Source: a virus
Length of the DNA stretch: 36,498 bases
IMG/VR virus record: IMGVR_UViG_3300010148_000040
Coordinates: 1-36,498 of that record
Direction: 5' to 3' (one strand)
The notes under the pieces were generated by a model that was given only the letters and a program-made list of their open reading frames with translations, ran no database searches and was not told the DNA's origin. Position 1 is the stretch's first letter, and every line of letters begins with the position of its first letter. This document shows positions 2,416-26,918 of the stretch, piece by piece. The translations under genes and the position numbers were made by a program.

Positions 2416-2535
2416 ATGACAAGATGTAATTATTTAGACGCATGGTTTGATGTTCAATCAAAAAAGGTCGATGAAACAGAAAAAAAGACAAAAAAAGAAT
2501 TTATTACTGGTAATAAAATTAAGAAGGTGAAATAA
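2416..2535 (+). CDS. mini-protein, 39 aa, Lys-rich
   Basis: ATG 2416 is favoured over the upstream in-frame codon at 2353 because TTGGAGAAATTA lies just before it and because it matches the leader repeat. The product is MTRCNYLDAW followed by FDVQSKKV and a highly charged Lys/Glu tail. The AWFDVQSKK segment looks like a displaced, degenerate version of the W-F-[DE]-[IV]-x-x-K tag. The stop TAA at 2533-2535 overlaps the ATG of the next gene by one base. Function unknown. Confidence 0.5.
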   Translation: MTRCNYLDAWFDVQSKKVDETEKKTKKEFITGNKIKKVK

Positions 2536-2909
2536 TGAGTTGGAGAGATATAATAAGAAAAGGACATTGTATGGCATCAAAAATGGACACTCCTTGTGAT
2601 TGTTCTGAATGCATGAAGAAAGCAAAATGCCCGCACTGTGAAGGAAAAGCCCCAAAAAGCGAATGTATTTGCGGTTCTATGGAAAAGGAAGATAAGCCTG
2701 ATTACATTGATATTGATGGTGATGGAAACAAAACCGAATCAATGAAAGAAGCGGCAAAAGACAAGAAAGGAAGAAGAAGAGGAACTGTAAGAGAAAGACT
2801 TGAAAATAGAAAAAAAGCAGAACGCTTAAGAGACAGGGATAGAGCCATAGAGCGTTTAAAGGGAAGAAAAAGAGGAACTGGAAGAAGCGCATTTACATCA
2901 AGGGATTGA
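2535..2909 (+). CDS. tagged Cys-rich / basic protein with EF-hand-like loop, 124 aa
   Basis: Starts MSWRDIIRK, a clear copy of the terminal tag. Residues about 20-50 contain a cluster of Cys in CxC, CxxC and CxxxC spacings (CDCSECMKKAKCPHC, then CICG) that could bind one or two zinc ions. Then comes DYIDIDGDGNKTE, matching the D-x-D-x-D/N-G-x-x-x-E type of calcium loop seen in EF-hands and dockerins, and a C-terminal half dense in Arg/Lys (KGRRRG, RERLENRKKAERLRDRDR). Such a polycationic tail would suit nucleic-acid binding inside a capsid. The DIDGDGN element is one I recall from marine phage proteins of unknown role. The stop overlaps the next gene. Confidence 0.7.
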   Translation: MSWRDIIRKGHCMASKMDTPCDCSECMKKAKCPHCEGKAPKSECICGSMEKEDKPDYIDIDGDGNKTESMKEAAKDKKGRRRGTVRERLENRKKAERLRDRDRAIERLKGRKRGTGRSAFTSRD

Positions 2910-2914
2910 GTATT

Positions 2915-3094
2915 ATGACTTGGCAGGAGGTTGTTAAATTTGATAGGCGAGATGTCGCAAGAAGAGTTCAAAAAACAGGCTATTGTCGTAAATGTCAGCA
3001 AATGGTAACTAAATATCAAAAGTGTCCTCGTAATTTACCTCCACCTTCTGCTGGAATAAAACCTAATTGCCCTATGCGGGGGTTTGAAGATTGA
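2915..3094 (+). CDS. tagged small zinc-finger-like protein, 59 aa
   Basis: ATG 2915 is chosen over the TTG at 2906 because it makes the protein start with the tag MTWQEVVKF. After a basic stretch (DRRDVARRVQK) follow C-R-K-C and two further Cys-Pro sites (KCPRN, NCPMRG), a plausible four-Cys zinc site with knuckle spacing C-x2-C...C...C. It overlaps the following gene by 4 bases (TTGA), so translation is probably coupled. Biochemical role unknown; small tagged virion protein inferred. Confidence 0.65.
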   Translation: MTWQEVVKFDRRDVARRVQKTGYCRKCQQMVTKYQKCPRNLPPPSAGIKPNCPMRGFED

Positions 3095-3966
3095 ATTGGT
3101 TTGAAATATTAAAAGTTGAAGATATTGACTTTGATAGAAACATTCGTTCTTTAGGCTTCTATCAAGAAGGTAATGAAATTAAAAATGATAAAGATATGCG
3201 AGAATTGATGGATAAAATAATGTTTGCTCAATTTAGGCAAGAAATGACAGGAGAACCAATTAAACTTGAGGACATTGTAAACAAAAAGATTAGAATTAAT
3301 CATGCTGCGATATATGCTCATTTAAAAAGAATTTTAGGAAGAAATCCAACAGATAAAGAAACAATTAGATATATTACAAGAGTAATAATGCATGAAGGAA
3401 CTCATGCAGGTATGGGTGAAGAACAGGATTCAATGTCTGTTCAACAAGCCGAATATGGAGCATATACAGGGCAATTCCCCGAAAGCACATATATTAGACT
3501 TAAAGAATATTTAAAACACCCACAAACAAAAAAAATACTTTTCCCTCCCGAAATAGCGGCTGGATTAGGAATTGACCCTGAAACATTTATGAGAACACCC
3601 GACATAATTCAAAAGGTTGGAGAACTAATTGGATATGTTGATGGTGTAACAGAAGAAATGCCTGAAGGAAAAGAAAAAGACGATTTAAAAGAAAAACTTA
3701 CTCGTTTAGAAATGTCAGCAAAAACAAGTGGAAAACCATTAGTACGGGAATGGCCTGTTCAAGAAAGCCCCGAAAAGTTCTATGAATTTTCTTTAAACCG
3801 TTATGGTAGGGAGAATAAAGATGTTGTTGATACATTAGCAAGAATAAATAATATACCTATTCCTGATACAGAAGAAAAGATGGCGGGAGCAGTAACTACC
3901 ACTTCTGCTCCTTCTATGTTTAATAATAAAGTTATTCGCAGAAGAAAAAAGAAAAAGGAGGATTGA
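3091..3966 (+). CDS. tagged putative zinc metalloprotease (HEGTH), 291 aa
   Basis: Starts with TTG at 3091, giving MNWFEILKVED, a clear copy of the terminal tag. The TTG overlaps the previous stop. At residues about 101-106 is MHEGTHAG, the HExxH zinc-binding and catalytic signature, preceded by a hydrophobic helix (IRYITRVI) as in metzincin and gluzincin active-site helices. A candidate third ligand lies about 15-20 residues on (SVQQAEYGAY). The rest is helical and charged, ending in an RRRKKKK tail. The family is not identified. The N-terminal tag suggests the enzyme is packaged in the prohead, where it could act in maturation or after injection. HExxH motifs can occur by chance, but helix context and spacing support it. 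Confidence 0.6.
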   Translation: MNWFEILKVEDIDFDRNIRSLGFYQEGNEIKNDKDMRELMDKIMFAQFRQEMTGEPIKLEDIVNKKIRINHAAIYAHLKRILGRNPTDKETIRYITRVIMHEGTHAGMGEEQDSMSVQQAEYGAYTGQFPESTYIRLKEYLKHPQTKKILFPPEIAAGLGIDPETFMRTPDIIQKVGELIGYVDGVTEEMPEGKEKDDLKEKLTRLEMSAKTSGKPLVREWPVQESPEKFYEFSLNRYGRENKDVVDTLARINNIPIPDTEEKMAGAVTTTSAPSMFNNKVIRRRKKKKED

Positions 3967-5090: not shown

Positions 5091-5420
5091 ATGTGGAAAA
5101 AAATTCTTAAAATTGATATGGAAGAAGCCCGTAGATTAGGAGATAGATATGCTCCTGACGATATGGAGCAAGCAAGAAAAGACAAATTAAAAACTGTTAT
5201 TACTAAAATAAAACCCACTATTGAGAAAATTTTAGAGATATATGTTGATGAGATTTCTGATGGAAATTCAAATAGATTTAGAAATACTATGGTTCAATTA
5301 ATGAGAAGTTTACCGAATGCTCCCCGCTTATCAAGAAGAACCGATAAAGATTCAAAACTTAGTAATAAGGCTATGATAGAAGATTATTTTGCGGAACTTG
5401 GAGAAATGTATAGAGAGTGA
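5091..5420 (+). CDS. tagged helical protein, 109 aa
   Basis: ATG 5091 behind GGAGATAAAAAT. The start MWKKILKID is the tag with Trp moved to position 2 and the acidic residue replaced by Lys. The remainder is helical and charged (MEEARRLGDRYAPDDMEQARKD, VITKIKPTIEKILEIYVDEI), without Cys clusters or membrane segments. It is followed by the zinc-HTH gene with which it overlaps or abuts. Function unknown; grouped with the tagged set by its N-terminus and position. Confidence 0.6.
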   Translation: MWKKILKIDMEEARRLGDRYAPDDMEQARKDKLKTVITKIKPTIEKILEIYVDEISDGNSNRFRNTMVQLMRSLPNAPRLSRRTDKDSKLSNKAMIEDYFAELGEMYRE

Positions 5421-5425
5421 TTTAC

Positions 5426-6091
5426 ATGACTATTAGCCGTAAAAGATGTGGTATGTGCCAGCATGAAGATAGGGAAGAACTTGAGGCTATGTTGGAAACA
5501 GGCCAAATTACCTGCGATGAATTAGATTCTCGTTATGGTTGGAGAAGTGGAACTGCGGCACAACATCAAAGAAATCATATGGGTAATTACACTAACTCAT
5601 CTAATCCTCGTTGTAATCTATGCACAGACCCAATGAGGAAACACTACGAAGTAGCGATTAAAGAAGGTAATATATCAACGGAGGCTGTTTCTTCTGCCTT
5701 AGATATGTCAAAAACACAGGTGCAAAGACACATGAAACACCACTTAACGCCAATCGTGCAGCAATCCGCAGCCAATATCATAGCGAAAAAGGAAGTAAAT
5801 GAAGTTGAATTACTATCAAACAATGTTGCTAAGTTAGATACACGATTAGAGCAGGTCTTTAACGATTTAGGAAATGATTTAGACCCTAAGATGATTGATG
5901 CCTTAACTAAGTTAGCAAGAGAAATTAGAGAGTCTTTGAAGTATCTTATGGAGTTTAAGGGTAAATTGATTCACAAGCGACAAGATACAATTATTGTTGC
6001 ACAAATGCAAATAGTCCAAGAAGTTCTTGCACAGAATAATCCTGAGATTTGGTTAGACATTAAGAAAAGAATGCAGGAGAAATTACAATGA
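5426..6091 (+). CDS. tandem zinc-HTH DNA-binding protein, possible small terminase subunit
   Basis: ATG 5426 is preferred over GTG 5417, which overlaps the preceding stop and uses the likely GTGAT binding site as codon. Two similar modules of about 50 residues follow each other: CGMC...HQRNH (about residues 8-54) and CNLC...HMKHH (about 62-107). Each has C-x2-C, a helix-turn-helix-like stretch and a closing H-x3-H or HH, a pattern I know from small phage DNA-binding proteins of the form CxxC...RHxxH. The C-terminal 100 residues are helical and could be an oligomerisation domain. DNA-binding N-terminus plus oligomerising C-terminus fits a small terminase, although the large terminase is 7 kb downstream. 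A transcription regulator is the main alternative. Confidence 0.55.
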   Translation: MTISRKRCGMCQHEDREELEAMLETGQITCDELDSRYGWRSGTAAQHQRNHMGNYTNSSNPRCNLCTDPMRKHYEVAIKEGNISTEAVSSALDMSKTQVQRHMKHHLTPIVQQSAANIIAKKEVNEVELLSNNVAKLDTRLEQVFNDLGNDLDPKMIDALTKLAREIRESLKYLMEFKGKLIHKRQDTIIVAQMQIVQEVLAQNNPEIWLDIKKRMQEKLQ

Positions 6092-6525
6092 ATTGGAAAG
6101 ATATTATTAAATCAAGATTTGAACATGACGAAAAAGGCGTTGCTGGCCCAAGTTATTTTGAAGAATCAAACGCATGGAAAGATATGGAAAACCCAAAAGA
6201 AATGAAAGATTTTATGACTAAAGACCAAATAGGAAGCGGTATTCAATATGAATTAAAAGATAAAACTTATGTTGGTGTTGATAAATTTATAACTGCACTA
6301 AAAGAAGTTTCAGGTAAAACCAAATTCAATAGAGGAAGATACGGAGTTTCTAATACTATGTCGGGCGTTCTTATGGAAATCATGGGGCAAGAAGATAACT
6401 TGCCTCAAAGAAAAGCATTATGGAAATTAATTCAAGAATATTTTTTTAATCCTCAATCATGGGAAAGAACAGGCGGAGAAGGCTGGACTACTGATGAAAA
6501 GAATATACCTTCATGGAAAAGATAA
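6088..6525 (+). CDS. tagged hypothetical protein, 145 aa
   Basis: Starts MNWKDIIKS, one of the clearest tag copies. It overlaps the preceding stop by ATGA, so translation is likely coupled. The rest has a mixed composition with strand-like (QYELKDKTYVGVDKFI) and helical (VLMEIMGQ, RKALWKLIQEYFF) parts and a Trp-rich end (SWERTGGEGWTT, IPSWKR). No family is recognised. It is probably a globular accessory protein carried in the prohead if the tag hypothesis is right. Confidence 0.65.
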   Translation: MNWKDIIKSRFEHDEKGVAGPSYFEESNAWKDMENPKEMKDFMTKDQIGSGIQYELKDKTYVGVDKFITALKEVSGKTKFNRGRYGVSNTMSGVLMEIMGQEDNLPQRKALWKLIQEYFFNPQSWERTGGEGWTTDEKNIPSWKR

Positions 6526-6547: not shown

Positions 6548-8863
6548 ATGTCTAATTGGTTTGATGTTGTTAAAATCATCGGTATTCCGAGAGGTGCAAT
6601 ATTTGTTTCAAATGTTGTAGTTAATAGAGCCGAGTTTGAAAATACATTAGACAAGTTGAGAAACCTCAAAAAAGTTCCTTCAAGCCTTCAAGGAGTATTA
6701 AATCGGACTAAAAAGACTCATAAAGAGTATTATAATGATGGAGTTAATGCCGCAACTACCGAAGTTGATTTAACAGAAGAAGAATCAAAAGAAATGTTTG
6801 ATGAAATGTTGCAAATTATGGCGGAAAAAACAGAAGAATACACTGAAAGAGAATATTTGAGTGAAAAACAGTTAAATTCTCTTCTTTCTGAAGCCATGAA
6901 AGCAAAAAAAGACAACGATAAAGAGAAAATTTCTCAAATTATTTTAGAAATTACTAAAGAAACTCCTAAAAATAGAGAATGGTGGAGCAAAAGAATCCCT
7001 CAAAGAGATAAATTGCAATTTTTACAGGAATTTTTGGAAGGAAATGAAGAAAGGTCGCACCTTGTCTTTGAAGATTCTTCTTCAAATGAAGAAATTTTGC
7101 AAAATTTTGCAGAATTAGTTGAAGGAACAGTGGAAAATGGAAAAATTTTCTTTAATGTCAATAAAATTAAGACTTATAACGACTTTATACGATTTTTACG
7201 ACCAAGTAAAGAAGAACAAAAGAAATTTTTAGAGTATAAAGAGAATAATGATGGAAAAAAGAGTGATGAAGAGAAAGTTTATGATAATCGCTTCAAAATT
7301 TATAATGAAACCATAAGACCGTTGAAGCCTGAGTTTATGGAAGGCGAACAAGCAAAGAAAATTGACCCAAGAGATTTAGCAGCAAAGGAATTAACTATTA
7401 GAGATGCTAAATATGAAATGGCAGGAACATTTAACGAGCGTTCTTTTGAAAGATACATAGAAATTGTTGCAGGATTAAAAGGTTCTTTGAGAATGTGGTT
7501 GCCTAATGAGTTTGAAAACGGAAGTGCTATACCTCAAGGGCTTATTTTTGTACCAAGACAATCAAAAAATAAAAAATCTTTAATTTTGAATCCTTATGCA
7601 TCTATTACAGTGTTGAGTGATTTTTCAGGAGAAAACTGGTTTAATACCTTTTTTGATTCTTTAAGAACTAATGAAGTATTAACAGACGATGAAGTAGAGC
7701 AATTACTTATTGATGATATTTCTAATGCTTTGATAGAAGATAAAGAACAAAGCCGTTTAGGATTTAGAAGCGCAAGTTTTTCAAGAATACAAAAAGTAAG
7801 AAATTTAATTATAAATCCTCCTAAACAACAGAAAAAAAGATTAAATGAAGTTATTAGACAAATTATATCTGAAAGTCAAGGTGAAGGTAATTTAGGTGAA
7901 GAAATTACTCAAAAGAAATTAGATATTAGAAGAGAGCAACTTTCTCTATTACAAAGATACTTTACTATAAAAGAAGGAAAAAAGATTAAGTCTTTATTAG
8001 ATGAACAATATGATGATGATGACATTAAAGTAAAATATTTTGATTCTTCAGGAACACTGATAGAAGAAATTGAAGGAGATGCTGGGGCATATAAAGAAAG
8101 AGTCTTAAATGCTGTTTATGTAGAATTTGAAATGTTTGATGATGAAGATACAGTTGTTAATCAAGAAAACTTTAATGATTGGGTAAATACTAATTTAACT
8201 GAAGTTAAAAAGCCAGTTGGTAAAAACCCAACAAGAGGTTTAGAAATAGCCTTAAAAGAAGTAGAGCAAGCATTAGAAAATCTACCGAATGTTGAAATGG
8301 CTGATGAATTTAGAGTAAAAAGAAAGAAAAAACTTGAAGAAGATATTTCAAGAATTAAACAAAGTATTGAAGATAGAAAAAGTAAACCTGTTTCACAGGA
8401 AGTAACTAATAAAGTTCAAGAGTTAAGAGATTCACTATTAAGACCTACTGACTTTGTTAGTTTTATTCAAGCACTTGGTTCAAAGGAGTCACTAAATGAT
8501 ATAATAGATAAGAAGATTGATTCGGCTAAAGTATTAGACCAAATTACTCCAAAAAACAGTTTATTGTTCTTTGATAAGATGGCTCAACGGGTGTCGGGTG
8601 ATGAGATAGGAGAAGCGTTTAATAAAATAAACGATAACCCCAATTCAGATGAGGCGAAAGCAATCCTTATTGAGTTAGATAAGAAAATGCCTTCATTATT
8701 ACAGACTTGGAAACAAGAAATAGTAAAAGCCTTTGAAATTAGATTAAAGTTCTTTTTGGATAATTATAAACAAAAATTCCAAGACAAAACAAATAAAAAA
8801 CAAGTTTCTCCCGCAATAAATGGATTTTTAAGAGCAGGTATGATACAAGAGGTTAGAACATGA
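6548..8863 (+). CDS. large tagged protein, 771 aa
   Basis: ATG 6548 is placed 6 bases after GAGGT. The N-terminus MSNWFDVVKI is the tag with one extra residue. The protein is long, Lys/Glu/Asp-rich and mostly helical, with a central part that looks more globular (residues about 300-400, containing RMWLPNEF and QGLIFVPRQSKNKKSLILNP) and coiled-coil stretches later (LEEDISRIKQSIEDR). I see no polymerase, nuclease, lysozyme or protease signature. Size, position and tag suggest an internal virion protein, perhaps ejected with the DNA as in podophage core proteins; this is inference. It overlaps the next gene by ATGA. Confidence 0.65.
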   Translation: MSNWFDVVKIIGIPRGAIFVSNVVVNRAEFENTLDKLRNLKKVPSSLQGVLNRTKKTHKEYYNDGVNAATTEVDLTEEESKEMFDEMLQIMAEKTEEYTEREYLSEKQLNSLLSEAMKAKKDNDKEKISQIILEITKETPKNREWWSKRIPQRDKLQFLQEFLEGNEERSHLVFEDSSSNEEILQNFAELVEGTVENGKIFFNVNKIKTYNDFIRFLRPSKEEQKKFLEYKENNDGKKSDEEKVYDNRFKIYNETIRPLKPEFMEGEQAKKIDPRDLAAKELTIRDAKYEMAGTFNERSFERYIEIVAGLKGSLRMWLPNEFENGSAIPQGLIFVPRQSKNKKSLILNPYASITVLSDFSGENWFNTFFDSLRTNEVLTDDEVEQLLIDDISNALIEDKEQSRLGFRSASFSRIQKVRNLIINPPKQQKKRLNEVIRQIISESQGEGNLGEEITQKKLDIRREQLSLLQRYFTIKEGKKIKSLLDEQYDDDDIKVKYFDSSGTLIEEIEGDAGAYKERVLNAVYVEFEMFDDEDTVVNQENFNDWVNTNLTEVKKPVGKNPTRGLEIALKEVEQALENLPNVEMADEFRVKRKKKLEEDISRIKQSIEDRKSKPVSQEVTNKVQELRDSLLRPTDFVSFIQALGSKESLNDIIDKKIDSAKVLDQITPKNSLLFFDKMAQRVSGDEIGEAFNKINDNPNSDEAKAILIELDKKMPSLLQTWKQEIVKAFEIRLKFFLDNYKQKFQDKTNKKQVSPAINGFLRAGMIQEVRT

Positions 8864-11386: not shown

Positions 11387-11764
11387 ATGGATTTGTGGTT
11401 TGAAGAACTAAAGAAGAAAAAGGACGCTTGTTATCACAAAGTCCGTAGTCGCTACAAAAAATGGCCTTCTGCTTATGCTTCCGGTGCTTTAGTTCAATGT
11501 CGTAAAGTTGGTGCAAAAAATTGGGGCAATTCTGTAAAAAAAGGTGGAGATAATTTCAAAAGAGAAAAAGAATCGGGATTACACGGTTGGTTTTCAAGAA
11601 AAGGCGGTGAAGGACAAAAAGGCTGGGTTTCTTGTCAATCTTGTGAAGATGATAAAAAAGGAACAAAACCTTGTGGAAGAAAAGATGCTTCTAAAGGAAC
11701 TAAACAAAGATGTAGGCCGACCTGTGGTGCTTGTAAAACTTATAAAAGGAGGAAAGGAGCATGA
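11387..11764 (+). CDS. tagged Cys-rich basic protein, 125 aa
   Basis: ATG 11387 follows GGTGATACT. MDLWFEELKKKKD is a tag variant with Trp at position 4. Next comes DACYHKVRSRYKKWPSAYAS continuing to GALVQCRKVGAKNWG, a block I recall from many marine virus proteins of unknown role. The C-terminal half has four CxxC-like pairs (SCQSC, PCGRK, RCRPTCGACK) and many Lys/Arg/Gly, so it probably binds zinc and could bind nucleic acid. It overlaps the next gene by ATGA. The biochemical function is not known to me. Confidence 0.65.
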   Translation: MDLWFEELKKKKDACYHKVRSRYKKWPSAYASGALVQCRKVGAKNWGNSVKKGGDNFKREKESGLHGWFSRKGGEGQKGWVSCQSCEDDKKGTKPCGRKDASKGTKQRCRPTCGACKTYKRRKGA

Positions 11765-12162
11765 ACTGGCAAATTATTTTAAAGGAACTTACTTGTCCTA
11801 GAGCAACACAAGACTTGATGCTCAATACTAAAAATAGAGATGCTGCTGTTAAAAACCCCAATATAAAATATGGGCCGCTTAATCTTGCTGATAAAGACTA
11901 CTGGGAAGAATATGCTAAAAGATGGAATACTACTGCGGAAGTAGCAAAGAAATCTAATTGTAGTAATTGTATTGCTTTTGATATTTCACCTAGAATGGAC
12001 GATTGTATGCCATTAACTACTGATGAAGATGGTCGTTTAGGTTATTGTTGGATGCACGATTTCAAATGTCATTCAGCAAGAACTTGTTATACTTGGGCTA
12101 AAGGTGGCCCGATTGATGACGATAAAACATCTAAGGAAAATCAAATGAGGGGAGAAAAATGA
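11761..12162 (+). CDS. tagged Cys/His-rich protein, 133 aa
   Basis: Starts MNWQIILKE (tag copy; Ile in place of the acidic residue) and overlaps the previous stop. The C-terminal 70 residues contain a dense metal-binding pattern: SNCSNC, then MDDCMP, GYCWMHDFKCHSA and RTCYTWAKGG, six Cys plus two His, suggesting two zinc ions or an iron-sulfur cluster. The C-x2-C ... GYC ... C ... TCxxW layout resembles small phage virion-region proteins I have seen but cannot name. It ends overlapping the next gene's ATG. Metal identity and function are unknown. Confidence 0.65.
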   Translation: MNWQIILKELTCPRATQDLMLNTKNRDAAVKNPNIKYGPLNLADKDYWEEYAKRWNTTAEVAKKSNCSNCIAFDISPRMDDCMPLTTDEDGRLGYCWMHDFKCHSARTCYTWAKGGPIDDDKTSKENQMRGEK

Positions 12163-12440
12163 CTTGGCAGGAAATTTTAAAGAAAAAGCCATTCAAGGGC
12201 TATAACAAAAAAATTCATGCAAAGACTGGTGGATTAAGTGCAAAAGGTCGTGCTAAATTTAAAAGGGAAACTGGTGCTAATTTAAAGCGACCTGTTACTA
12301 AAAAACCAAGTAAACTAAAAAGAGGCGGTAAAGCATGGAAAAGAAGAAAATCTTTTTGTTCAAGGTCAAGAGGTTTTAAGAGAGCCGATGGAACTTATAG
12401 CGAAAAAGCAAAAGCAGCCCGAAGAAGGTGGAATTGTTGA
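12159..12440 (+). CDS. tagged highly basic protein, 93 aa
   Basis: Starts MTWQEILKK, a clear tag. The rest is extremely rich in Lys and Arg, containing KTGGLSAKGRAKFKRETGAN, a block recalled from small basic proteins of marine phages, and a Cys/Arg end (KSFCSRSRGFKR, RRRWNC). A polycationic protein with an N-terminal capsid tag is a good candidate for DNA condensation or neutralisation in the head. That role is inference. Translation is coupled to both neighbours by overlaps. Confidence 0.65.
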   Translation: MTWQEILKKKPFKGYNKKIHAKTGGLSAKGRAKFKRETGANLKRPVTKKPSKLKRGGKAWKRRKSFCSRSRGFKRADGTYSEKAKAARRRWNC

Positions 12441-14663: not shown

Positions 14664-16025
14664 ATGACAGAAGAAGCAGATAAATACCGCCAAGCGGCTA
14701 CTCAAATGGAAAGATTAGCCGAATTAGATGAAGAAGAAGAGTCAATGAAGGATTCAATTCAAAGTCAATTAGGAATTGAATTAAAGTTCATTTTCAGCGA
14801 AAGTCCTGTTTTATCCGAGCATGAAGAAATATCAAAAATTTCTGAAATATATGGATTGAATGCTACTCAAGCAAGAAAAGAATTAAACTCTTTTCCTGAA
14901 CAATATCTTGTTCAAGACCATACTATTCCTGATTTAGTAAGAAAGATGAGAAAGGCTCGTCGTAAATTAAAAGGAGAACAAAGAGAAAAGATGGCTAAAG
15001 CAATTGATACAATGATTGATGCTTATACAGACCATTTAGGTAAGTGTATTGATTCTATTAGTTGGTTATCAGATTATAGCGTTCCTTTAAAGAAAATGAG
15101 ATACAATGAAAAAGATTTACATAAGTTATACACTATGAAAAGTATTGATGAAAGAAGAGAAGTAGTTGATTCTCTTTGTAAATACTGGGAAGCAGAATTA
15201 AAGCAAAATGATATGGCTTACTGTAAAGAATATAGTGATTTAAATAAAGAGATGAGAGGTGCTAAAAAATTATTTAGAAATGCATTAGCGAAAATTTCAA
15301 ATCAATCTATTACTAAATCTAAAAAAGAAAGACAACAAGATTTTATTCTTAAATCTGTTTGTGAAAATCCAGGAATTAATGCTAAAAGGATTCATGAAAA
15401 AATGCCTACTCCTTTATTCAAGATTTCATCACCTAATTCTATTTCACAAATAATTAAAAAATTAGATATTATTTCATATAAAGGAAATTATTACAAAGCA
15501 CCAACTATGCTAAAGAAAAATATTTGGGCTTACTGTGCTGCTTTTATTGATTCAGATGGTTATATTACACTTGACCGTAATATGAATCCAAGAGTAGGTT
15601 TAGTAGCCACAGGACAAAGAGGTAGGGCATTTATGGAAGAAATGCACAAGTCAATAGGTTTTGGTCGTATGCACTTAGACCAAAAATCACCACAAGATAC
15701 TCGCCTTATTAATAGGTTAAACTTTTATTCTCAAGCAGATGTTACTTCGCTATTAACTAAGTGTTTGCCTCATTTTAGATTAAAAAAAGGTAATGCTAAG
15801 TTATTACTTGAACTTATTCGTATGAAGAAATCTTATAAAAAGGCTGATTGGTATAAGAGCCGTTGTGATGAAATCTTCAAACTAATGAAATGGGAGAACC
15901 ATAAAGACCATGTAGGTTTTGATTGGTTAAAAGAAGGTATTTATCTTGATGATATTCAAAAGTTCAAAGACAACTGTAAAATGTCTGTAATGGATTCTTT
16001 AGAACAAATAGGAACGGTGATGTAA
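14664..16025 (+). CDS. winged-HTH / LAGLIDADG endonuclease-like protein, 453 aa
   Basis: ATG 14664 follows GAGGTATTTAT. Three regions are visible: a helical, charged N-terminal 220 residues; a probable winged helix-turn-helix at about 225-280 (NAKRIHEKMP, SISQIIKKLDIISYKGNYYKA); and a LAGLIDADG-type domain from about 287, with AYCAAFIDSDGYITL as the signature helix and catalytic Asp, followed by strands and FGRMHLDQ. Only one LAGLIDADG motif is seen, so such an enzyme would act as a homodimer. Homing endonucleases often sit next to terminase genes in phages, usually as HNH types. The fused long N-terminus is unusual and could be a packaging function that recruited the domain. Confidence 0.65.
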   Translation: MTEEADKYRQAATQMERLAELDEEEESMKDSIQSQLGIELKFIFSESPVLSEHEEISKISEIYGLNATQARKELNSFPEQYLVQDHTIPDLVRKMRKARRKLKGEQREKMAKAIDTMIDAYTDHLGKCIDSISWLSDYSVPLKKMRYNEKDLHKLYTMKSIDERREVVDSLCKYWEAELKQNDMAYCKEYSDLNKEMRGAKKLFRNALAKISNQSITKSKKERQQDFILKSVCENPGINAKRIHEKMPTPLFKISSPNSISQIIKKLDIISYKGNYYKAPTMLKKNIWAYCAAFIDSDGYITLDRNMNPRVGLVATGQRGRAFMEEMHKSIGFGRMHLDQKSPQDTRLINRLNFYSQADVTSLLTKCLPHFRLKKGNAKLLLELIRMKKSYKKADWYKSRCDEIFKLMKWENHKDHVGFDWLKEGIYLDDIQKFKDNCKMSVMDSLEQIGTVM

Positions 16026-16456: not shown

Positions 16457-18094
16457 GTGGCTAATGAAAAAAGAAGATTTTCTTTTACTAACCTCTTTAG
16501 GCGACAAACTCCTAAACCTGCGGATAGAACCGTTTATAATATGGGAATACAAGAAAGAGAAAATCGTCATATGATGACTGGCCCATTATTGTATAATATA
16601 ATGAATCAGTCAGTAATAGGCAGAACTTGTATTACTCAATTAAAACAAGAAGTTTTCCGAAGAGGCTACCTATGGGAAAAATCATATGAAGCAAGGTGTA
16701 AAGATTGTGGAAAAGAACATAAAAGACCTGTTCAAGAATGTTCTCGTTGTAAAAGCACTAATTTAAAAGTTCCTGATGTAAAGCAATTAGAATATGCTGA
16801 GAAGTTTATTGAAGGATATGTAAACAAATCAGAACAATTGTTTATTGATGTTTTACAAGAACTTGAAGATGATTTAAATATCATGGACGATGCTTACATT
16901 GTTATGGTAAAAGAATACTTTTTAGACGGAAATCAAGATATAAGAATGCATAGAATAAAAGAACTGTATAGAGGCGACCCAGTAACTATGTTTATTTATA
17001 CTGATGAATTAGGACAAAGAGGAACAAAAGGATTTACTTGTGTTAATCATCGTAATGTTATTCATACAGAACCCCATAGCAAATGCGACATTTGCGGAGC
17101 AAAAACATTTCCTGTTCATTATGTAAATAGAGCCAATGGTGAAGAACAATATTTTTTGAAAGGAGAAGTCCTTCACTTCAGTAAATATAGTCCTTCTCGT
17201 CTTTATGGTCAATCTCCAGTTGTTACTCTATTTAATGCGATTATGACATTAATTGCTATGGAAAACTATGTTAATTCATCTTATACTAAGAGTCGTATGC
17301 CGAGAGGATTACTTGCAGTTCAAACAAGAAATATGGATTCAATGCGTTCTTTTTGGAGAGGCGTAAAAGAAAAAATGGAAGCAGACCCACATTTTATTCC
17401 TGTTATGGGAATAGAAGCAGAAGGTGGAAAAGGCGCAGTTGAATGGATTAAGTTCATGGATAGCCTAAAAGAAATGGATTATGTTTCTGTTAAAGATGAT
17501 TTGAGAGATAGAATATCAGCATTTTATGGAGTGAGTAAAGTATTCATGGCTGATAATACTACAAGTGGTGGGTTAAACAATGAAGGTATGCAAATACTTG
17601 TTACCAATAGAGCAGTTCAAAAAGCACAGACTGTCTATAATAATTATGTTTTCCCGTTCCTTGTAAAACAATTTGGTATTACAGATTGGAATTTAAAACT
17701 ACCACCAAGCGAAGAAGAAGATGAAATCGCTGTTCTTCGTAAGCGTGAGATTGAAGTTAATATTGCTGCTTCTGTTAAAAATTTAGGATTTGAAGTTGAT
17801 ATGGACGAAGATGGGCAATTTACTTTCAAGAAGCCTGAACCCGAACAACCAAAAGAAGGTGAAAGTAAAGAGGGAGAACAAGTTGATAAAGACCCTTATG
17901 CCGGAACTAATATAGACGCTTCACAATTAGGACAAATGCAAGAACAAGCCCTACAAGGGAAACCGCAAGAAAATCCAGCGACAAGTAGAAATAAGCCTTC
18001 TATGAATCAAGCACCAGACAAGCGACTTACGGGATTACCCTTAGATGCGGGAAATCAAAATAATGACAAAAGAACAGAAAGGAGAGTAGGATAA
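16457..18094 (+). CDS. portal protein with two zinc-ribbon insertions, 545 aa
   Basis: The dodecameric head vertex through which DNA enters. GTG 16457 is chosen because AGGGGGTG precedes it. The portal signature is GEVLHFSKYSPSRLYGQSPV (about residues 236-255), followed by a helical stem-like region and FYGVSKVFMAD with NNEGMQ, typical of phage portals. Unusually, two metal sites interrupt the N-terminal wing: C81-x2-C84...C95-x2-C98, and C195...H...C210-x2-C213. The last 90 residues are Glu/Gln/Pro-rich and probably disordered. Terminase upstream and protease/capsid downstream support the call, though 6 kb of accessory genes separate portal from protease. Confidence 0.88.
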   Translation: MANEKRRFSFTNLFRRQTPKPADRTVYNMGIQERENRHMMTGPLLYNIMNQSVIGRTCITQLKQEVFRRGYLWEKSYEARCKDCGKEHKRPVQECSRCKSTNLKVPDVKQLEYAEKFIEGYVNKSEQLFIDVLQELEDDLNIMDDAYIVMVKEYFLDGNQDIRMHRIKELYRGDPVTMFIYTDELGQRGTKGFTCVNHRNVIHTEPHSKCDICGAKTFPVHYVNRANGEEQYFLKGEVLHFSKYSPSRLYGQSPVVTLFNAIMTLIAMENYVNSSYTKSRMPRGLLAVQTRNMDSMRSFWRGVKEKMEADPHFIPVMGIEAEGGKGAVEWIKFMDSLKEMDYVSVKDDLRDRISAFYGVSKVFMADNTTSGGLNNEGMQILVTNRAVQKAQTVYNNYVFPFLVKQFGITDWNLKLPPSEEEDEIAVLRKREIEVNIAASVKNLGFEVDMDEDGQFTFKKPEPEQPKEGESKEGEQVDKDPYAGTNIDASQLGQMQEQALQGKPQENPATSRNKPSMNQAPDKRLTGLPLDAGNQNNDKRTERRVG

Positions 18095-18408
18095 TGAGTT
18101 GGTTAGATATACTGAAGTTTAAAAGAAATTTTAAAGATTTAAGGCAATTAAGAGAAGAAGGAATTAGAGAAGGAACAAAACAAAGAACGGCAAATAAAGT
18201 TCTTGGAGATATTTCAAGAGAACCAAAAAGTAGTCCGAAGGGTGATTTGATGGATATGCAAGAAGATAGGGATATAGACCAAGACCTTGCTAATATGGCT
18301 AAAGATGATTTGATTGAAGAAGTTATGGATAGAATTGAACAAATGTCAAAAGATGAACTTATTGATATGTTAATTAGAACAAGAGGACAAATGGGGGAAA
18401 GTATATGA
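18094..18408 (+). CDS. tagged helical protein, 104 aa
   Basis: The ATG shares one base with the portal stop. The start MSWLDILKF is a clear tag copy. After a basic helix (KRNFKDLRQLREEGIREGTK) comes an acidic helical C-terminus (DLIEEVMDRIEQMSKDELID and on), which could form a coiled coil. It overlaps the next gene by ATGA. Function unknown; being directly behind the portal it may be a core or scaffold accessory protein. Confidence 0.65.
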   Translation: MSWLDILKFKRNFKDLRQLREEGIREGTKQRTANKVLGDISREPKSSPKGDLMDMQEDRDIDQDLANMAKDDLIEEVMDRIEQMSKDELIDMLIRTRGQMGESI

Positions 18409-20770: not shown

Positions 20771-20980
20771 ATGAATTGGTGGAATATAATCAAAGCAAAA
20801 GGAATTGGTGGAGGCGCACCTAAAGATAGAAAAAGAAAACCTCGTTATGGAACAACTACTCCAAGAGGCTCTTATTATGATAGACTCAATAGATTAGTTG
20901 ATGATATGCTTAGAGGTAGAATAACTGAAGCAGAATATAAATCAGCAAAAGAAAGATTAGATGCGGAGATGAAAAGATGA
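20771..20980 (+). CDS. tagged protein with SHOCT-like end, 69 aa
   Basis: ATG 20771 is chosen over GTG 20762 because the GGTG at 20761-20764 is its ribosome binding site and because the protein then begins with the tag MNWWNIIKAKG. A flexible Gly/Lys/Arg stretch follows. The last 30 residues (LNRLVDDMLRGRITEAEYKS onward) resemble the short helical SHOCT pattern L-x2-L-x3-G-x-IT-x2-E[FY]-x3-K. SHOCT modules often serve as oligomerisation or adaptor elements. It overlaps the next gene by ATGA. Confidence 0.62.
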   Translation: MNWWNIIKAKGIGGGAPKDRKRKPRYGTTTPRGSYYDRLNRLVDDMLRGRITEAEYKSAKERLDAEMKR

Positions 20981-21219
20981 GCGATAAAACACTTAATGAA
21001 GAATTACTTGCTATTATTAAAGCACTAACTGATAAAGTTGAAAGCCTTGAAAAAGCAGTTTATAATAAAGACAATCTATTGATGAAATCAGGATTTGTTA
21101 TTGCTGATAGTCCAACACCTGCTATGGTTGGTGTAGTGGGAACTGCTACTAAAACACCTAATAATGCAGGAAATATGGAATGGGCGGATATTCATAAAAT
21201 GGTATCAAGTTTGGAGTGA
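20977..21219 (+). CDS. mini scaffold-like protein with C-terminal tag, 80 aa
   Basis: Starts by ATGA overlap. The first 35 residues are a classic coiled coil (LNEELLAIIKALTDKVESLE and on), followed by a flexible linker rich in Thr, Pro and Gly. It ends NMEWADIHKMVSSLE. That C-terminus is nearly the same as the end of the prohead protease-scaffold (LDWSDIHKMVGGFN), including the distance to the stop. It therefore looks like a miniature scaffold: coiled-coil oligomeriser plus the same capsid-docking peptide. No family is recognised. Confidence 0.7.
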   Translation: MSDKTLNEELLAIIKALTDKVESLEKAVYNKDNLLMKSGFVIADSPTPAMVGVVGTATKTPNNAGNMEWADIHKMVSSLE

Positions 21220-21743: not shown

Positions 21744-21757
21744 TCGGGGTGGTATTA

Positions 21758-24271
21758 TTGAAACTCGGTTCTATTGAAAAGGATAGGCAACCTTCTATTG
21801 AGTTGATGCGGCTTTTTGAAAAAACAAGAGTTGCTTATTTATCAGCCGTTCAAGACCCCGATGAGTATTCGGGTCGTTGGCGTAAAGCCGTTGATATGAT
21901 AGAAGAATCCTATGAAGAATTAGATGCCGCAGGTAAAGAGTTAAAGAATTTTATTAGGGAAGAAGAAATAACTGATAATGATGTTAAAGACCCTGAATCT
22001 TCTAAAGCACAGAACCTATACGAAAAAATTAAACTCGTTAGGTATAACTCAAAGATTATTGCTGACCCTTTTGCTGAAATGTTCAAAGGGAATGTTCTTG
22101 AAGAATTATTAGATAATCCTGAAAGTATGGTTAAATTTGTCCATTATGCTATGAGGGAAGATAATAAAGCACTTTCCGATGAAGTTTTAGCCATTAAAGG
22201 TATGCAACCCGACACAATTACGGAGGGTCTTATGGGGCTTGACATAGAAGTGGACGATATACCCCTCTATATTATTGAGCATTACGGTGATGGAAAAGAC
22301 TCAAAAAAGGTTGAAAAGAAAGTAAAGGCTGCTCTTGATATGTTAGAACTTATTTTCTTTTCTCAGCATGAAGAAGAAGAATGGGGAGAACTTAAGGATA
22401 TTGATATGCAAAAGTCCGAAGAAGAAAAGTCCGAAGAAAAGTCCGTTAGTGATTTTATTATTCCTAATAAACCAATGTATCGCATATTTGAAATTAATGA
22501 TATTAATGAATTAAAGGGATTTAGCGGAAATTGGTATATTCAAGAAAAGTATGATGGTATGAGAGTTCAATTGCATAAACTTGATAATAGAGTTAAAGTT
22601 TATTCTTTTAATGAAAAAGACATTACTGATAAGTGTGAAGATATAGTTAAGGAATTAAAAAAGAAAGAATATGGAGATTGTATGTTTGATGCTGAATTAG
22701 TTCTTTTTGATGAAGAAGAACCACTACATCGTGCAGATACTATTGCTCATGTTTTTAAAGGTAAATATAAAGATGCTAAATTAAAGTGTCATGTATTTGA
22801 TATTATGCGACATGAAGCACAGACATTACTTGATGAAGAATTAGAAAATAGAATGACTATTCTATTCAATAATTACGCTGCTAAATCATCTGAATATTTA
22901 AATTTCCCTTCAAAGAAAGATACAAGACAGGCTGATAGTTTAAAAGATTTAGAAGAATATGCAAAACAAATTATGGAAATGCCTACATCTGAAGGAGTTG
23001 TAATTAAAGATGCTACCTCAACATATTATGTTGGAACTAAAAAGAATCCTAAGTGGATTAAATTAAAAAAGTTTGTTGATTTAGATGTTATTGTTTTAGA
23101 CAAGAAAAAGACTAAAAGTAATCTTTATTCTTATAATGTTGGTGTTGGGCCAATTCCTGAAGATATGAACGGTAAAGAAATTGACGGAAGAAAATATCTT
23201 GATGTAGGAAAAGCATTGAATACAAAGGTCGCAGTAGATATTGGCGATATAATTAGAGTAAAGGTTGATGAAGTAAAGAAGAAAGGAGATGGATTTAGTT
23301 TATTCTCCGCTAAAGTAATTGAAATACCTGAAGTAGAATATCCTGATAAATTAGTTACTTTAGAGTTATTGTCAAAAGATACTAAAAAATCTTTAAATTA
23401 TAATGTTGAAGCATTTAAAAAAGGAGTAAAAATTACTGATAATATTCATGGAGAAACTACTGCTATAATTAAATATGATACAAATGGTTTTGTAGTATAT
23501 GGTTTTGAAGAGAATAATTTAATGTCTAAAAATGCTTTAGCAGATTTAGATATGTGGAAGGCTCAAGCAGAAGAAATAATGAAAACAAAGCAAGGAGAAT
23601 TAACTGTTGCTATTTTTAATTATTTACAAGAAAAAGGTGATAAAACTCCTAAAGATGTGCATGATTATCTAAAAAGAGATTTTACTGAATTATATGAAAC
23701 AGTATTAGAATCTAAGCAAAGAAAGTTAGGTAAGTGGGCGCAAGAAAGAGAACACATTAAAATGATTGATGATAAATTACACGCTGACCCTACAATTAAA
23801 TTGGCTGATGGTGAAGAAATTAAAAAAGAGTATAAAACTCCAAAAGAATACAGGAATGGTAAATTCAAAATATATAACCGAGAAGATAATAGAGTTCATT
23901 TAGCCATTAGTATAAACAAAGAGAATCTTAATTGGACTATTGATATAGAAAATGAAGAAGAGTTATTTGATTTATTTGGTGCGGCTGGTAAATATCCAGC
24001 AGAAGTTTCAAAGAATGTTGAAAGAGGAAAAGTAATTGATTCCGGAGATATTGAACTTGGTGTGCAAAAAGACGGTTATCACGAATATTTCTTAAAAGGA
24101 AATAAGTTTGAAACTAAAATGCATATTAGAGTAATTCCTATTGATAATAAACCTATGTGGTTAGCATGGACGGGGTATAAACAAGAACCTGCCGATACTG
24201 AAAACGATAAAGGAAAATGGAATATATACGAAGATAGGTATAATAAATTGTCCATTCCTACCGAAGATTAG
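21758..24271 (+). CDS. ATP-dependent DNA ligase with extra N- and C-terminal domains, 837 aa
   Basis: It joins nicked DNA using ATP. TTG 21758 is favoured since GGGGTGGT (21746-21753) is its ribosome binding site; GTG 21749 lies within that site. Ligase motifs appear in order: motif I EKYDGMR with the nucleophilic Lys at about residue 264, FDAELVLF (motif III) near 310, EGVVIKD (motif IV) near 412 and WIKLKK (motif V) near 433, then an OB-like region (GDIIRVKVDEVKKKG). The first 240 residues are an unrelated helical domain with an acidic repeat (KSEEEKSEEKS). The last 130 residues form a separate domain (HLAISINKENLNWTIDIE, WLAWTGY) that faintly recalls the LigD phosphoesterase fold. Location inside the head gene block is unusual. 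Confidence 0.88.
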   Translation: MKLGSIEKDRQPSIELMRLFEKTRVAYLSAVQDPDEYSGRWRKAVDMIEESYEELDAAGKELKNFIREEEITDNDVKDPESSKAQNLYEKIKLVRYNSKIIADPFAEMFKGNVLEELLDNPESMVKFVHYAMREDNKALSDEVLAIKGMQPDTITEGLMGLDIEVDDIPLYIIEHYGDGKDSKKVEKKVKAALDMLELIFFSQHEEEEWGELKDIDMQKSEEEKSEEKSVSDFIIPNKPMYRIFEINDINELKGFSGNWYIQEKYDGMRVQLHKLDNRVKVYSFNEKDITDKCEDIVKELKKKEYGDCMFDAELVLFDEEEPLHRADTIAHVFKGKYKDAKLKCHVFDIMRHEAQTLLDEELENRMTILFNNYAAKSSEYLNFPSKKDTRQADSLKDLEEYAKQIMEMPTSEGVVIKDATSTYYVGTKKNPKWIKLKKFVDLDVIVLDKKKTKSNLYSYNVGVGPIPEDMNGKEIDGRKYLDVGKALNTKVAVDIGDIIRVKVDEVKKKGDGFSLFSAKVIEIPEVEYPDKLVTLELLSKDTKKSLNYNVEAFKKGVKITDNIHGETTAIIKYDTNGFVVYGFEENNLMSKNALADLDMWKAQAEEIMKTKQGELTVAIFNYLQEKGDKTPKDVHDYLKRDFTELYETVLESKQRKLGKWAQEREHIKMIDDKLHADPTIKLADGEEIKKEYKTPKEYRNGKFKIYNREDNRVHLAISINKENLNWTIDIENEEELFDLFGAAGKYPAEVSKNVERGKVIDSGDIELGVQKDGYHEYFLKGNKFETKMHIRVIPIDNKPMWLAWTGYKQEPADTENDKGKWNIYEDRYNKLSIPTED

Positions 24272-24315: not shown

Positions 24316-25521
24316 ATGTCATCTGCGGTAATGTCAAACAATACTCATGATTTCAGGATTCTTAAAAGCGATAACTTGATGATTGGAGGATATGCAAGCA
24401 TTGAAATCGTTGATAAACAAAATGATTTAATCACACTCAAGGCTCTTAATGAAGCAGTAAACAAATATATGGAGAACCCTAAGTTTAGAAATGTAATGAC
24501 TAATCATTCAAATGTTCAAGTTGGGGAAGTAGTAAAATCATATAGAGATAAAACAGGGAGATTATGGAAAACAGAAGTTGATGATGTTGGATTCTTTGTT
24601 GTAATTAAATTAAGAGATGATATTGAAAAAGCCAAAGAAATAAATAGAGGCATCAGAAAAGGTTCATTAAGGTCGTTTAGCATTGGAGGGCAAGCATTAC
24701 AGAAAGTAAAGAAAAACCACCCAGAATTAGGCGAATTTAATGAAATAAGCAAACTTGAACTACATGAGGTAACTATCTGTGAAAAAGGAATTAACCCTGA
24801 AGCAAAGTTTGATATTCTAAAACAAGACAAAACAAAAAATAAGGTGAAAACTATGAGTAAAATTGAGAAAGCATTGGAAGAGTTAGACGCATTAATGGCT
24901 GAAGTTAATACTCTCCGAAAAGAAGATGAAATGACAGATGAAAAGCAAATGCCCGAAGAAGAGAAAATGGGTGGCGAATACATGGACGAAGAAGAAGATA
25001 TGATGCCTGAAGAAGAAAAAGGCGGATATAAGGACATGGAATCAAAAGCCCTTCTTTCAACTCTTGACGGTGCTGGTGTTGAAATCGGTGAACCTGCGGA
25101 TAGAATTGTTATTGACAATGGAAACCCAAAGGCTTCTGATTTGCCAGTAGTTAAGGCATTTAACAACAAAGAATTAGAAACACTTGATTTGAGCGTTGCT
25201 AATATTGAGAAGGCTTACGAGGCTTTCCGCCAAGAACAACTTGAAAAGTTGGCTTACGATAACCTTCAAAAGCAATTTGAAAACCGATTTGCTCATGAAA
25301 GGTCAAACCGTGAGAATGTTCTTGCAAAATCACAATATGACGCACAAAGCGAAATTGTTTCACTTAAAGAAGAATTTACTGCTTTAAGAAAGTCTTTGAC
25401 GGCTGAAAAGGAAACAATCCTAAAAGCACAAGAAGAAGCAAATATTAAACTCCCAACAATGGAACAAATGGCTGAATTAGATTGGTCAGATATTCATAAG
25501 ATGGTTGGAGGATTTAACTGA
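24316..25521 (+). CDS. prohead protease fused to scaffold, 401 aa
   Basis: A protease that matures the procapsid, joined to the scaffold domain. Residues about 10-170 match the S78 (HK97-type) family: GGYASIEIVDKQND at the start, MTNHSN with catalytic His64, SLRSFSIGG with the Ser (120 or 122), and LELHEVTICEKGINPEA, the typical end of the domain. From about 180 the chain is acidic and helical (MPEEEKMGGEYMDEEEDMMP) with a coiled coil, as in delta-domain scaffolds. It ends LDWSDIHKMVGGFN, the same peptide as at the N-terminus of many accessory proteins. An internal start at 24853 with its own binding site probably yields free scaffold. Confidence 0.88.
   Translation: MSSAVMSNNTHDFRILKSDNLMIGGYASIEIVDKQNDLITLKALNEAVNKYMENPKFRNVMTNHSNVQVGEVVKSYRDKTGRLWKTEVDDVGFFVVIKLRDDIEKAKEINRGIRKGSLRSFSIGGQALQKVKKNHPELGEFNEISKLELHEVTICEKGINPEAKFDILKQDKTKNKVKTMSKIEKALEELDALMAEVNTLRKEDEMTDEKQMPEEEKMGGEYMDEEEDMMPEEEKGGYKDMESKALLSTLDGAGVEIGEPADRIVIDNGNPKASDLPVVKAFNNKELETLDLSVANIEKAYEAFRQEQLEKLAYDNLQKQFENRFAHERSNRENVLAKSQYDAQSEIVSLKEEFTALRKSLTAEKETILKAQEEANIKLPTMEQMAELDWSDIHKMVGGFN
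24853..25521 (+). CDS. nested scaffold protein from an internal start, 222 aa
   Basis: Within the protease-scaffold frame, AAGGTGAAAACT directly precedes an in-frame ATG at 24853 (MSKIEKALEELDALM), exactly at the junction between protease and scaffold. This binding site is as good as those of genuine genes in the window. Nested scaffold starts within protease genes are known from phages (for example Nu3 within C of lambda). The product would be an acidic coiled-coil scaffold ending in the WSDIHKMV peptide, made in excess over the fused protease. Inferred, not proven. Confidence 0.65.
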   Translation: MSKIEKALEELDALMAEVNTLRKEDEMTDEKQMPEEEKMGGEYMDEEEDMMPEEEKGGYKDMESKALLSTLDGAGVEIGEPADRIVIDNGNPKASDLPVVKAFNNKELETLDLSVANIEKAYEAFRQEQLEKLAYDNLQKQFENRFAHERSNRENVLAKSQYDAQSEIVSLKEEFTALRKSLTAEKETILKAQEEANIKLPTMEQMAELDWSDIHKMVGGFN

Positions 25522-25532
25522 GGTGATTTATT

Positions 25533-26918
25533 ATGACAGGATATATTAACACAATTGGAGATTTAGAAGCACAAACATACGGATTAACAGGCCATACTGG
25601 TATTAACAACCAATTGCTTAAGCAAGCAGGTTCTATTGCTGGATTGCATACAGGCCATGACGCTGCTTTAGGCGTATCAACTACTAATTCAGCAGGAGCA
25701 GCAAGTTCACTTGGTGCTTTGTATAATCAAGTATATGGACAAAAAGTGTGGTCTATGCTAAACAGGGAATGTAATGCACTTTCCGTTATTTCAAAGAGGC
25801 CATACACTTCAAGCGGTTGGAGAGTATTAAGTGAGCGACCTGCGGGTGGTAGCGGTAATTTCCTTGATTTAACAGGTGTAAATCGTGCTACTGATGCTGA
25901 TTCTATTGGTAGTGGTACAGAAAACAGCCAAGTAGCGGGAACAATGCGACCAGATTTAATTGGTGGTGTTCCTGAAAATGCGGCTCTTTCAACTCCTGCT
26001 GACGGTTTAGCGTCTATTGCTCCAAAATACGAGCAATTGTTCACAAGTCCAAAGATTGTTGCTCATCAATTTGAGTTTAGCGAATTGGCTATGGAAATGG
26101 CGCAAATTGACGATGGAATTGGCGATATTAGAGCGCAAATGAGAGAAGATATGGGTAAACACCATGCTGAAACTCAAAACGCTATGCTTGTTATGCCTCT
26201 TGAAAACTACAATTTATCGGCTACAAACCAAATTGGAAACATTCAAAGAAACTATACTTCTTTGATGAAGGTTGTTTCTTCTAAGAGCGAATTAGACGCT
26301 ATGGCTGCTGGAACTGTTTTAACTGCATCAAACTCAGGTGTTGCTGCTATTGAATCTATTTACGGTAAGGCTCGTAGTGCTTCTTCATTCCTTGATGCAC
26401 AGGTTGATTTTGGCGGAGTTGGATATGGAAGTGCAAATTCTCGTCAATTAACACTAACTGTTCTTAATAAGACTCTTAGAGACTTGAGAGTTGCAGGTGG
26501 TTCACCAAAGGTTATTCTAACTGGATATGATACACTTCAAACTATTTCTGACTTATTGCAAGCACAAGAAAGATTTATGGATAGAAAAGAAATTGTTCCG
26601 ACTGTAAACGGTGTTCGTGGTGTAAAGGGTCAAGAAGTAGGATTTAGAGTTTCAACTTACTATGATATACCTATGATTCCTGTTGCGGCTATGCCTTCAA
26701 CTGGTGCTGATACTTCTTGTATTAGTGATATGCTTTTCCTTGATACAGACCATTTGTGGCTATCTGTTATGAAACCAACTCAATACTTTGAAGATGGTAT
26801 TTCAAACGGAAACCCATTCGGTGTCGGCCATCTTGGAAACAAGGCTCTTTATAGAACAATTGCGGAAGTTGGCTGTTCATACTTTAAAGGTCAAGGTAAA
26901 ATCACAAACTTGCTTTGA
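25533..26918 (+). CDS. major capsid protein (HK97-type by context), 461 aa
   Basis: ATG 25533 follows the strong GAGGTGATTTATT site. It lies directly behind the prohead protease-scaffold, where HK97-fold capsid genes are found, and its length is typical. The sequence is rich in Ala, Gly, Ser and Thr with long mixed segments (VWSMLNRECNALSVISKRPY; MEMAQIDDGIGDIRAQMRED as a candidate spine helix; LWLSVMKPTQYFEDGISNGN near the end). There is more GC-rich, evenly chosen codon use than in neighbours, as expected for the most expressed gene. Fold assignment rests on context plus general appearance. Confidence 0.85.
   Translation: MTGYINTIGDLEAQTYGLTGHTGINNQLLKQAGSIAGLHTGHDAALGVSTTNSAGAASSLGALYNQVYGQKVWSMLNRECNALSVISKRPYTSSGWRVLSERPAGGSGNFLDLTGVNRATDADSIGSGTENSQVAGTMRPDLIGGVPENAALSTPADGLASIAPKYEQLFTSPKIVAHQFEFSELAMEMAQIDDGIGDIRAQMREDMGKHHAETQNAMLVMPLENYNLSATNQIGNIQRNYTSLMKVVSSKSELDAMAAGTVLTASNSGVAAIESIYGKARSASSFLDAQVDFGGVGYGSANSRQLTLTVLNKTLRDLRVAGGSPKVILTGYDTLQTISDLLQAQERFMDRKEIVPTVNGVRGVKGQEVGFRVSTYYDIPMIPVAAMPSTGADTSCISDMLFLDTDHLWLSVMKPTQYFEDGISNGNPFGVGHLGNKALYRTIAEVGCSYFKGQGKITNLL

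Follow-up and report, generated by a model that had tools for sequence, protein, structure and literature searches.

Does the head of a magrovirus carry, in addition to its maturation protease, a second protease of a different kind, and what would such an enzyme do? The question is raised by the open reading frame at 3091-3966 of the window, as we call the whole stretch of DNA analysed here, a 36.5-kb IMG/VR record (36,498 nucleotides) that is a fragment of a magrovirus. A sequence-only reading had reported in this frame a TTG start, the N-terminal tag MNWFEILKV and an HEGTH motif, all of which we find as claimed, with HEGTH at residues 101-105, and had put the product forward as a candidate metalloprotease packaged with other head proteins. 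The features of the gene are these:

3091..3966, plus strand: gene for the predicted HExxH metalloprotease with its tag (291 aa, starting at TTG)
3091..3117, plus strand: N-terminal tag MNWFEILKV (tag statistics; W3 invariant in 23 homologues)
3391..3405, plus strand: HEGTH at residues 101-105 on helix 88-114, a putative motif for zinc binding and catalysis (H101, E102 and H105 invariant; model)
3451..3453, plus strand: Glu121 on helix 117-128, which may be the third zinc ligand (invariant in 23 sequences)
3871..3963, plus strand: basic C-terminal tail EEKMAGAVTTTSAPSMFNNKVIRRRKKKKED (tail profile search; one gene per genome, whatever the payload)

The gene and its candidate zincin site

The product opens with MNWFEILKVEDIDFD, and its TTG start codon overlaps the stop codon of the upstream gene (TTGA). 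This start is supported by the orthologues in L090, L091 and L096, which use ATG at the same residue. The family is under purifying selection (dN/dS 0.23-0.58). Searches of Pfam, PHROGs and NCBIfam gave no match above cut-off, a single-sequence scan of viral contigs and INPHARED returned no relatives, and none were found in the cellular genomes searched; the relatives used here came from searching the records of terminase relatives.

By chance, about 0.004 HExxH motifs are expected in a protein of 291 aa and 0.17 in the window, and the motif by itself therefore carries little weight. Conservation adds to it. In HEGTH, which M100 precedes and A106-G107 follow, H101, E102, T104 and H105 are kept, together with E121, in nine full-length family members with 40-62% identity to the window protein, and W3, R97, H101, E102, H105, E121, A124, H143 and P144 are invariant in 23 homologues of 20-61% identity. 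The loop between H105 and E121 differs in length among homologues, with E121 retained throughout.

A first AlphaFold model, built from nine close homologues, reached a pLDDT of 62.7 and gave meaningless fold matches; it was superseded by a second, based on the 23-sequence alignment with the tail of the window protein omitted (pLDDT 83.9, pTM 0.72). This model has three short strands (residues 11-14, 22-26 and 65-69), the HExxH helix at 88-114 and E121 on a helix at 117-128. A predicted structure setting the HEGTH residues apart would have counted against the sequence-only reading, and the model does not do so: all of them fall within a single, confidently predicted helix. Among viral folds, the best match in BFVD is an IrrE protein (probability 0.98, E 0.035), and re-alignment to the PDB gives YbeY zinc hydrolases four of the top 16 ranks, with Z values (5.1, 4.6, 4.5 and 3.6) too low to make a shared fold secure; Foldseek searches of the PDB and BFVD gave nothing with E < 0.001. 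In Pfam, the relative L161 matches M78 across the HExxH region with E 0.0012 and 19.1 bits against a curated cut-off of 22, and the window protein itself gives no M78 match. Further sub-threshold Pfam or NCBIfam matches of the window protein or its relatives are to DUF6782 (E 0.0055), archaemetzincin (0.016), M91 (0.027), SprT (0.071), flagellinolysin (0.075) and Zincin_1 (0.096), and none of the zincin-family profile or fold matches is significant alone.

Several other assignments were rejected. The metzincin pattern HExxHxxGxxH lacks its last His at the required position, a Pfam PBS_linker match (E 0.004) lies below cut-off, and a sequence search of solved structures returned no zincin, its match of the C-terminal half to ribosomal bL20 (E 0.0011) being weak and judged to be chance. 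Re-alignments to YbeY (UPF0054) are the best in the PDB and cover residues 1-133, reaching or passing the end of the HExxH helix. The zinc motif of YbeY has three His residues, H-x3-H-x5-H, whereas the window protein has HExxH with a Glu and, in HEGTHAGMGEE, no His six residues past H105. The protein shares with IrrE/ImmA (Pfam M78) the combination of HExxH and a downstream Glu and differs from it in having an N-terminal tag, an insert, a helical C-terminal half and a basic tail.

Considering the conserved HExxH and E121, the good model, and profile and fold matches that are weak but convergent, we regard the product as very probably a gluzincin-like zincin of a new family, which would bind zinc and cleave proteins. 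The proposal of a metalloprotease thus gains from the conserved motif, the downstream Glu, the zincin-like model and the restriction of the tagged set to the head module, and remains that of a candidate with presumed activity.

A tag shared by head-module proteins

The protease gene is one of ten tagged genes in the window, where about 0.16 tagged proteins among 47 would be expected (P ~1e-15). The other nine, with the head genes that bear on the tag, are as follows:

2535..2909, plus strand: tagged protein, MSWRDIIRKG
2915..3094, plus strand: tagged zinc-ribbon-like protein (CRKCQ..), upstream of the protease gene
5091..5420, plus strand: tagged protein, MWKKILKID
6088..6525, plus strand: tagged protein, MNWKDIIKS
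6548..8863, plus strand: tagged 771-aa protein, MSNWFDVVKI
11761..12162, plus strand: tagged protein, MNWQIILKE
12159..12440, plus strand: tagged protein, MTWQEILKK
18094..18408, plus strand: tagged protein, MSWLDILKF
20771..20980, plus strand: tagged protein, MNWWNIIKA
20977..21219, plus strand: 80-aa protein whose C-terminus carries the motif, MEWADIHKMVSSLE (conserved in 16 related genomes)
24316..25521, plus strand: S78-like head maturation protease with a scaffold-like tail ending LDWSDIHKMVGGFN (PHROG head maturation protease; C-terminal motif)
25533..26918, plus strand: major capsid protein, anchor of the head module (PHROG major head protein)

We surveyed the tag, defined as Wxx[ILV][LIV]K within the first 14 residues, in 17 records, namely the window and 16 contigs of 84-97 kb, with genes called by a simple script, so that some tagged genes are doubtful or missed. 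The records hold 267 tagged genes, 7-25 in each, against about 0.2 per genome expected from the internal rate; all relatives come from one order, and these counts are therefore not independent events. Within 45 kb upstream of the capsid gene, 259 of 1137 genes are tagged, compared with 8 of 1076 elsewhere, and every tagged gene lies on the capsid strand; the 1099 genes of the replication strand include none. Many of the tagged products are small and vary from one virus to a close relative. When 111 of them, mostly cluster representatives, were aligned, mean column identity was 4%, and the only consensus was MxWxDILK. Orthologues use different synonymous codons for the Ile and Leu residues of the tag, which marks it as a signal at the protein level and rules out a conserved DNA element. 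By its distribution among predicted genes, then, the tag is a system of the whole lineage, and our literature search by term found no description of such a tag.

The same motif recurs at the other end of the scaffold. In every genome examined, the C-terminus of the S78 protease-scaffold reads [DE]W[SAN][DE]IHKM[VA], with WxDI-K as in the tag, and both this protease and the 80-aa protein end in [DE]W[SANK][DE]IHKM. The simplest reading is that one docking site, most likely inside the shell, serves both scaffold and cargo, the scaffold binding to it through its C-terminus and cargo through the N-terminus. The S78-type gene also bears out the earlier statement that the HEGTH protein is additional to a prohead protease, and we rejected the product of 3091-3966 as the head maturation protease itself, since a separate one is present.

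In L088 (1649-2671), L094 and L095, a homologue of the zinc-ribbon protein encoded just upstream shares one reading frame with the metalloprotease, and each fusion is a protein with two tags. Other genes of the window also merit mention. An 840-aa head-module protein (21749-24271) has no tag at its N-terminus; its residues 255-440 match an ATP-dependent DNA ligase domain (Pfam E 2e-29), which is unusual among virion genes. Directly past the terminase, a 453-aa open reading frame (14664-16025) has a C-terminal part (FIDSDGYITL) resembling LAGLIDADG homing endonucleases, a reading that Pfam does not confirm. Downstream of the capsid gene, 28621-29289 encodes a small-GTPase-like protein with a weak MMR_HSR1/Roc match. 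Among the tagged proteins of 16 magrovirus genomes, PAP2 phosphatase (E 1e-11), pentapeptide repeats (E 8e-11) and DUF6321 (E 9e-14) are each matched by individual members, and these could be further delivered functions.

A cassette with changing payloads

A profile of the last 30-40 residues, searched across the 17 records, found exactly one tagged gene with this C-terminal tail in each genome (17 of 17). It always lies on the capsid strand, with one and the same neighbour gene 1.2-2.7 kb downstream of it. What lies between tag and tail differs. The middle is the metalloprotease in five records (the window, G001, G003, G006 and G012), is empty or a few residues long in six (G008, G018, G022, G023, G030 and G038), and is another small domain in six more (G026, G027, G029, G032, G034 and G042), where about 70-120 aa separate the two ends. 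These last six match the tail profile weakly (E 0.00008-0.006), as does G008 (E 0.0004). A tree built from capsid, terminase and portal requires two changes of the protease state, and in it G018, which has no protease, branches as sister to the group of the window. As judged from these comparisons, the locus is a tag-payload-tail cassette, newly recognised here, whose middle appears to be exchanged between viruses. The protease relatives in L145, L161, L163 and L015 are tagged and tailless; the enzyme therefore occurs both as a free tagged gene and as a fusion to the tail.

The same tag is found on further HExxH families: a 270-aa HEAGH family (L055, L061 and L067), a family B with HEAAH, HESAH or HEYSH (L039, L040 twice, L055 and L064) and a family C with HEETH (L016 and L023). 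A second slot for tagged HExxH genes lies directly 5' of the terminase gene in L016, L023, L039, L040, L055, L061 and L067, and G030, whose cassette is empty, has two tagged HExxH proteins at this slot. In hhalign comparisons, the protease family matches family B at 96% (E 2e-9) and family C at 92%, matches that are partly or wholly driven by the tag and leave common descent of the enzyme domains unproven. HExxH occurs in 9 of 285 tagged and 8 of 1928 untagged genes (P 8e-5), a comparison that ignores relatedness, includes chance motifs and is indicative only.

What the enzyme may do

We favour, with some reserve, the explanation that the gene encodes a gluzincin-like zinc metalloprotease which is accessory cargo of the magrovirus head and acts as a delivered effector. 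The tag, MxWx[DE]I[LI]K, resembling the C-terminus of the S78 protease-scaffold, would dock the protein during prohead assembly, at the inner face of the capsid shell or at the scaffold. The Lys/Arg-rich C-terminal tail might then hold it to packaged DNA or to a fixed partner, and the enzyme could leave the head with the DNA and conceivably cut a host protein, such as a regulator or a defence protein, much as proteases of the ImmA/IrrE type cut repressors. IrrE/ImmA proteins, the nearest by fold, cleave transcriptional repressors, and a host regulator is for this reason a fair first guess at the substrate. We lean only slightly towards a broader proposition, taken as a whole: that an order of marine archaeal viruses loads its head by a peptide code copying its own scaffold end, with some 7-25 changing tagged genes per near-complete genome, several kinds of HExxH metalloprotease among them, and a fixed tag-payload-tail locus whose payload is exchanged between viruses.

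The distribution of the enzyme bears most directly on the alternatives. Tagged HExxH proteases of the families described occur in 6 of the 17 records and are absent from 11, while none of the 17 lacks the S78 protease, the tags or the scaffold motif; this argues against an essential role in maturation or ejection and for an accessory delivered effector. The general role in processing internal proteins or assisting ejection that the sequence-only reading had offered is accordingly unlikely. A predicted protease encoded in the head cluster with the head-module tag is also what one would expect of an additional maturation enzyme active within the prohead beside the S78 protease, trimming tags, scaffold or internal proteins, but a needed step is not expected to be so patchy, nor to be missing from G018, and we hold this quite unlikely. 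We consider it very unlikely that the tag docks the enzyme for assembly and that the enzyme then acts from the virion at entry, opening the envelope or shaping an ejection channel. Such a role would suit magroviruses, whose predicted tail lacks a contractile sheath (PMC10768690), and it has a parallel in P22, where internal head proteins build a channel through which DNA enters (PMC8402733). Against it, the predicted enzyme consists mainly of helices, shows no obvious membrane-spanning stretch and can be dispensed with across the lineage.

Two further alternatives concern the site and the tag rather than the time of action. The HExxH could be a structural or degenerate metal site in a zincin fold without protease activity, in keeping with the lack of an above-cut-off match to any active protease family, and activity is not readable from sequence; yet across 23 sequences Glu102, the catalytic residue, is conserved as strictly as the two His residues, and several other tagged proteins of the lineage also have HExxH, which makes this the least probable of the alternatives. 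Somewhat less improbable, though still unlikely, is that the tag is no packaging signal and serves the head module in another way, recruiting its proteins for co-assembly, for example to a viral chaperone, with tagged proteins not retained in the virion. Tag and head are linked by genomic evidence only, and magroviruses encode a GroEL-like chaperonin, both in keeping with this reading. Against it, the scaffold-protease carries the motif at its opposite end, as expected of docking to the shell, and many tagged proteins are small and variable between close viruses, like the internal proteins of T4. Loading as head cargo for delivery remains the explanation we prefer. If it is right, a readable packaging tag amounts to a parts list of what magroviruses probably deliver, proteases included; the hosts of the window's virus are abundant ocean archaea.

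The comparison that comes closest is with phage T4 and P1. Cargo bearing the T4 capsid-targeting signal (CTS) is injected and counters host enzymes (PMC3012670, PMC9024508). Like the T4 CTS internal proteins and P1 DarB, the magrovirus set combines a short N-terminal signal, common to otherwise unrelated head-module proteins, with a diverse and fast-changing membership. It differs in its motif (MxWxDILK), in belonging to a lineage of archaeal viruses, in the recurrence of the motif at the C-terminus of the protease-scaffold, in its 7-25 genes per near-complete genome with the putative signal, and in including predicted metalloprotease payloads and the tag-payload-tail cassette. The likeness to T4 CTS (PMC3012670) and P1 DarB (PMC9024508) is thus one of working principle, not of sequence, and suggests an archaeal counterpart of T4 effector loading; if so, archaeal viruses came independently to the use of injected accessory proteins. 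Among cellular systems, encapsulins load enzymes into an HK97-fold shell by a short terminal peptide. These cargo-loading peptides are generally C-terminal and of different sequence, whereas the magrovirus tag is mainly N-terminal and occurs in a virus with a maturation protease.

The placement of the virus rests on its relatives. The window's terminase has 196 relatives, of which 80, 82-96% identical and many on contigs of 90-97 kb, were kept. The near relative G001 shows the traits described for Aoguangviridae/Magrovirales (PMC10768690), of which the window itself is only a fragment: a genome type of 90-100 kb with opposite replication and virion clusters, a split family B polymerase and a GroEL-like chaperonin. 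Magroviruses may rank third in abundance among planktonic viruses of the surface ocean (PMC10160649); none has been cultured (PMC10768690), and our literature search found no virion proteome or virion study. Among annotated phages, the portal and head protease are nearest to those of haloviruses HVTV-1, HCTV-1 and HCTV-5, as described for the order. The related, cultured Druskaviridae (HVTV-1, HCTV-1) have neither N-terminal tags on head genes nor the C-terminal motif on the protease, so that the tag cannot be compared with a cultured relative. In these haloviruses, a segment like VYVDSPDEAPEGV recurs in genes 113, 115 and 116 of HVTV-1 (L244) and genes 106 and 109 of HCTV-1 (L245), and is possibly a different shared head-protein domain.
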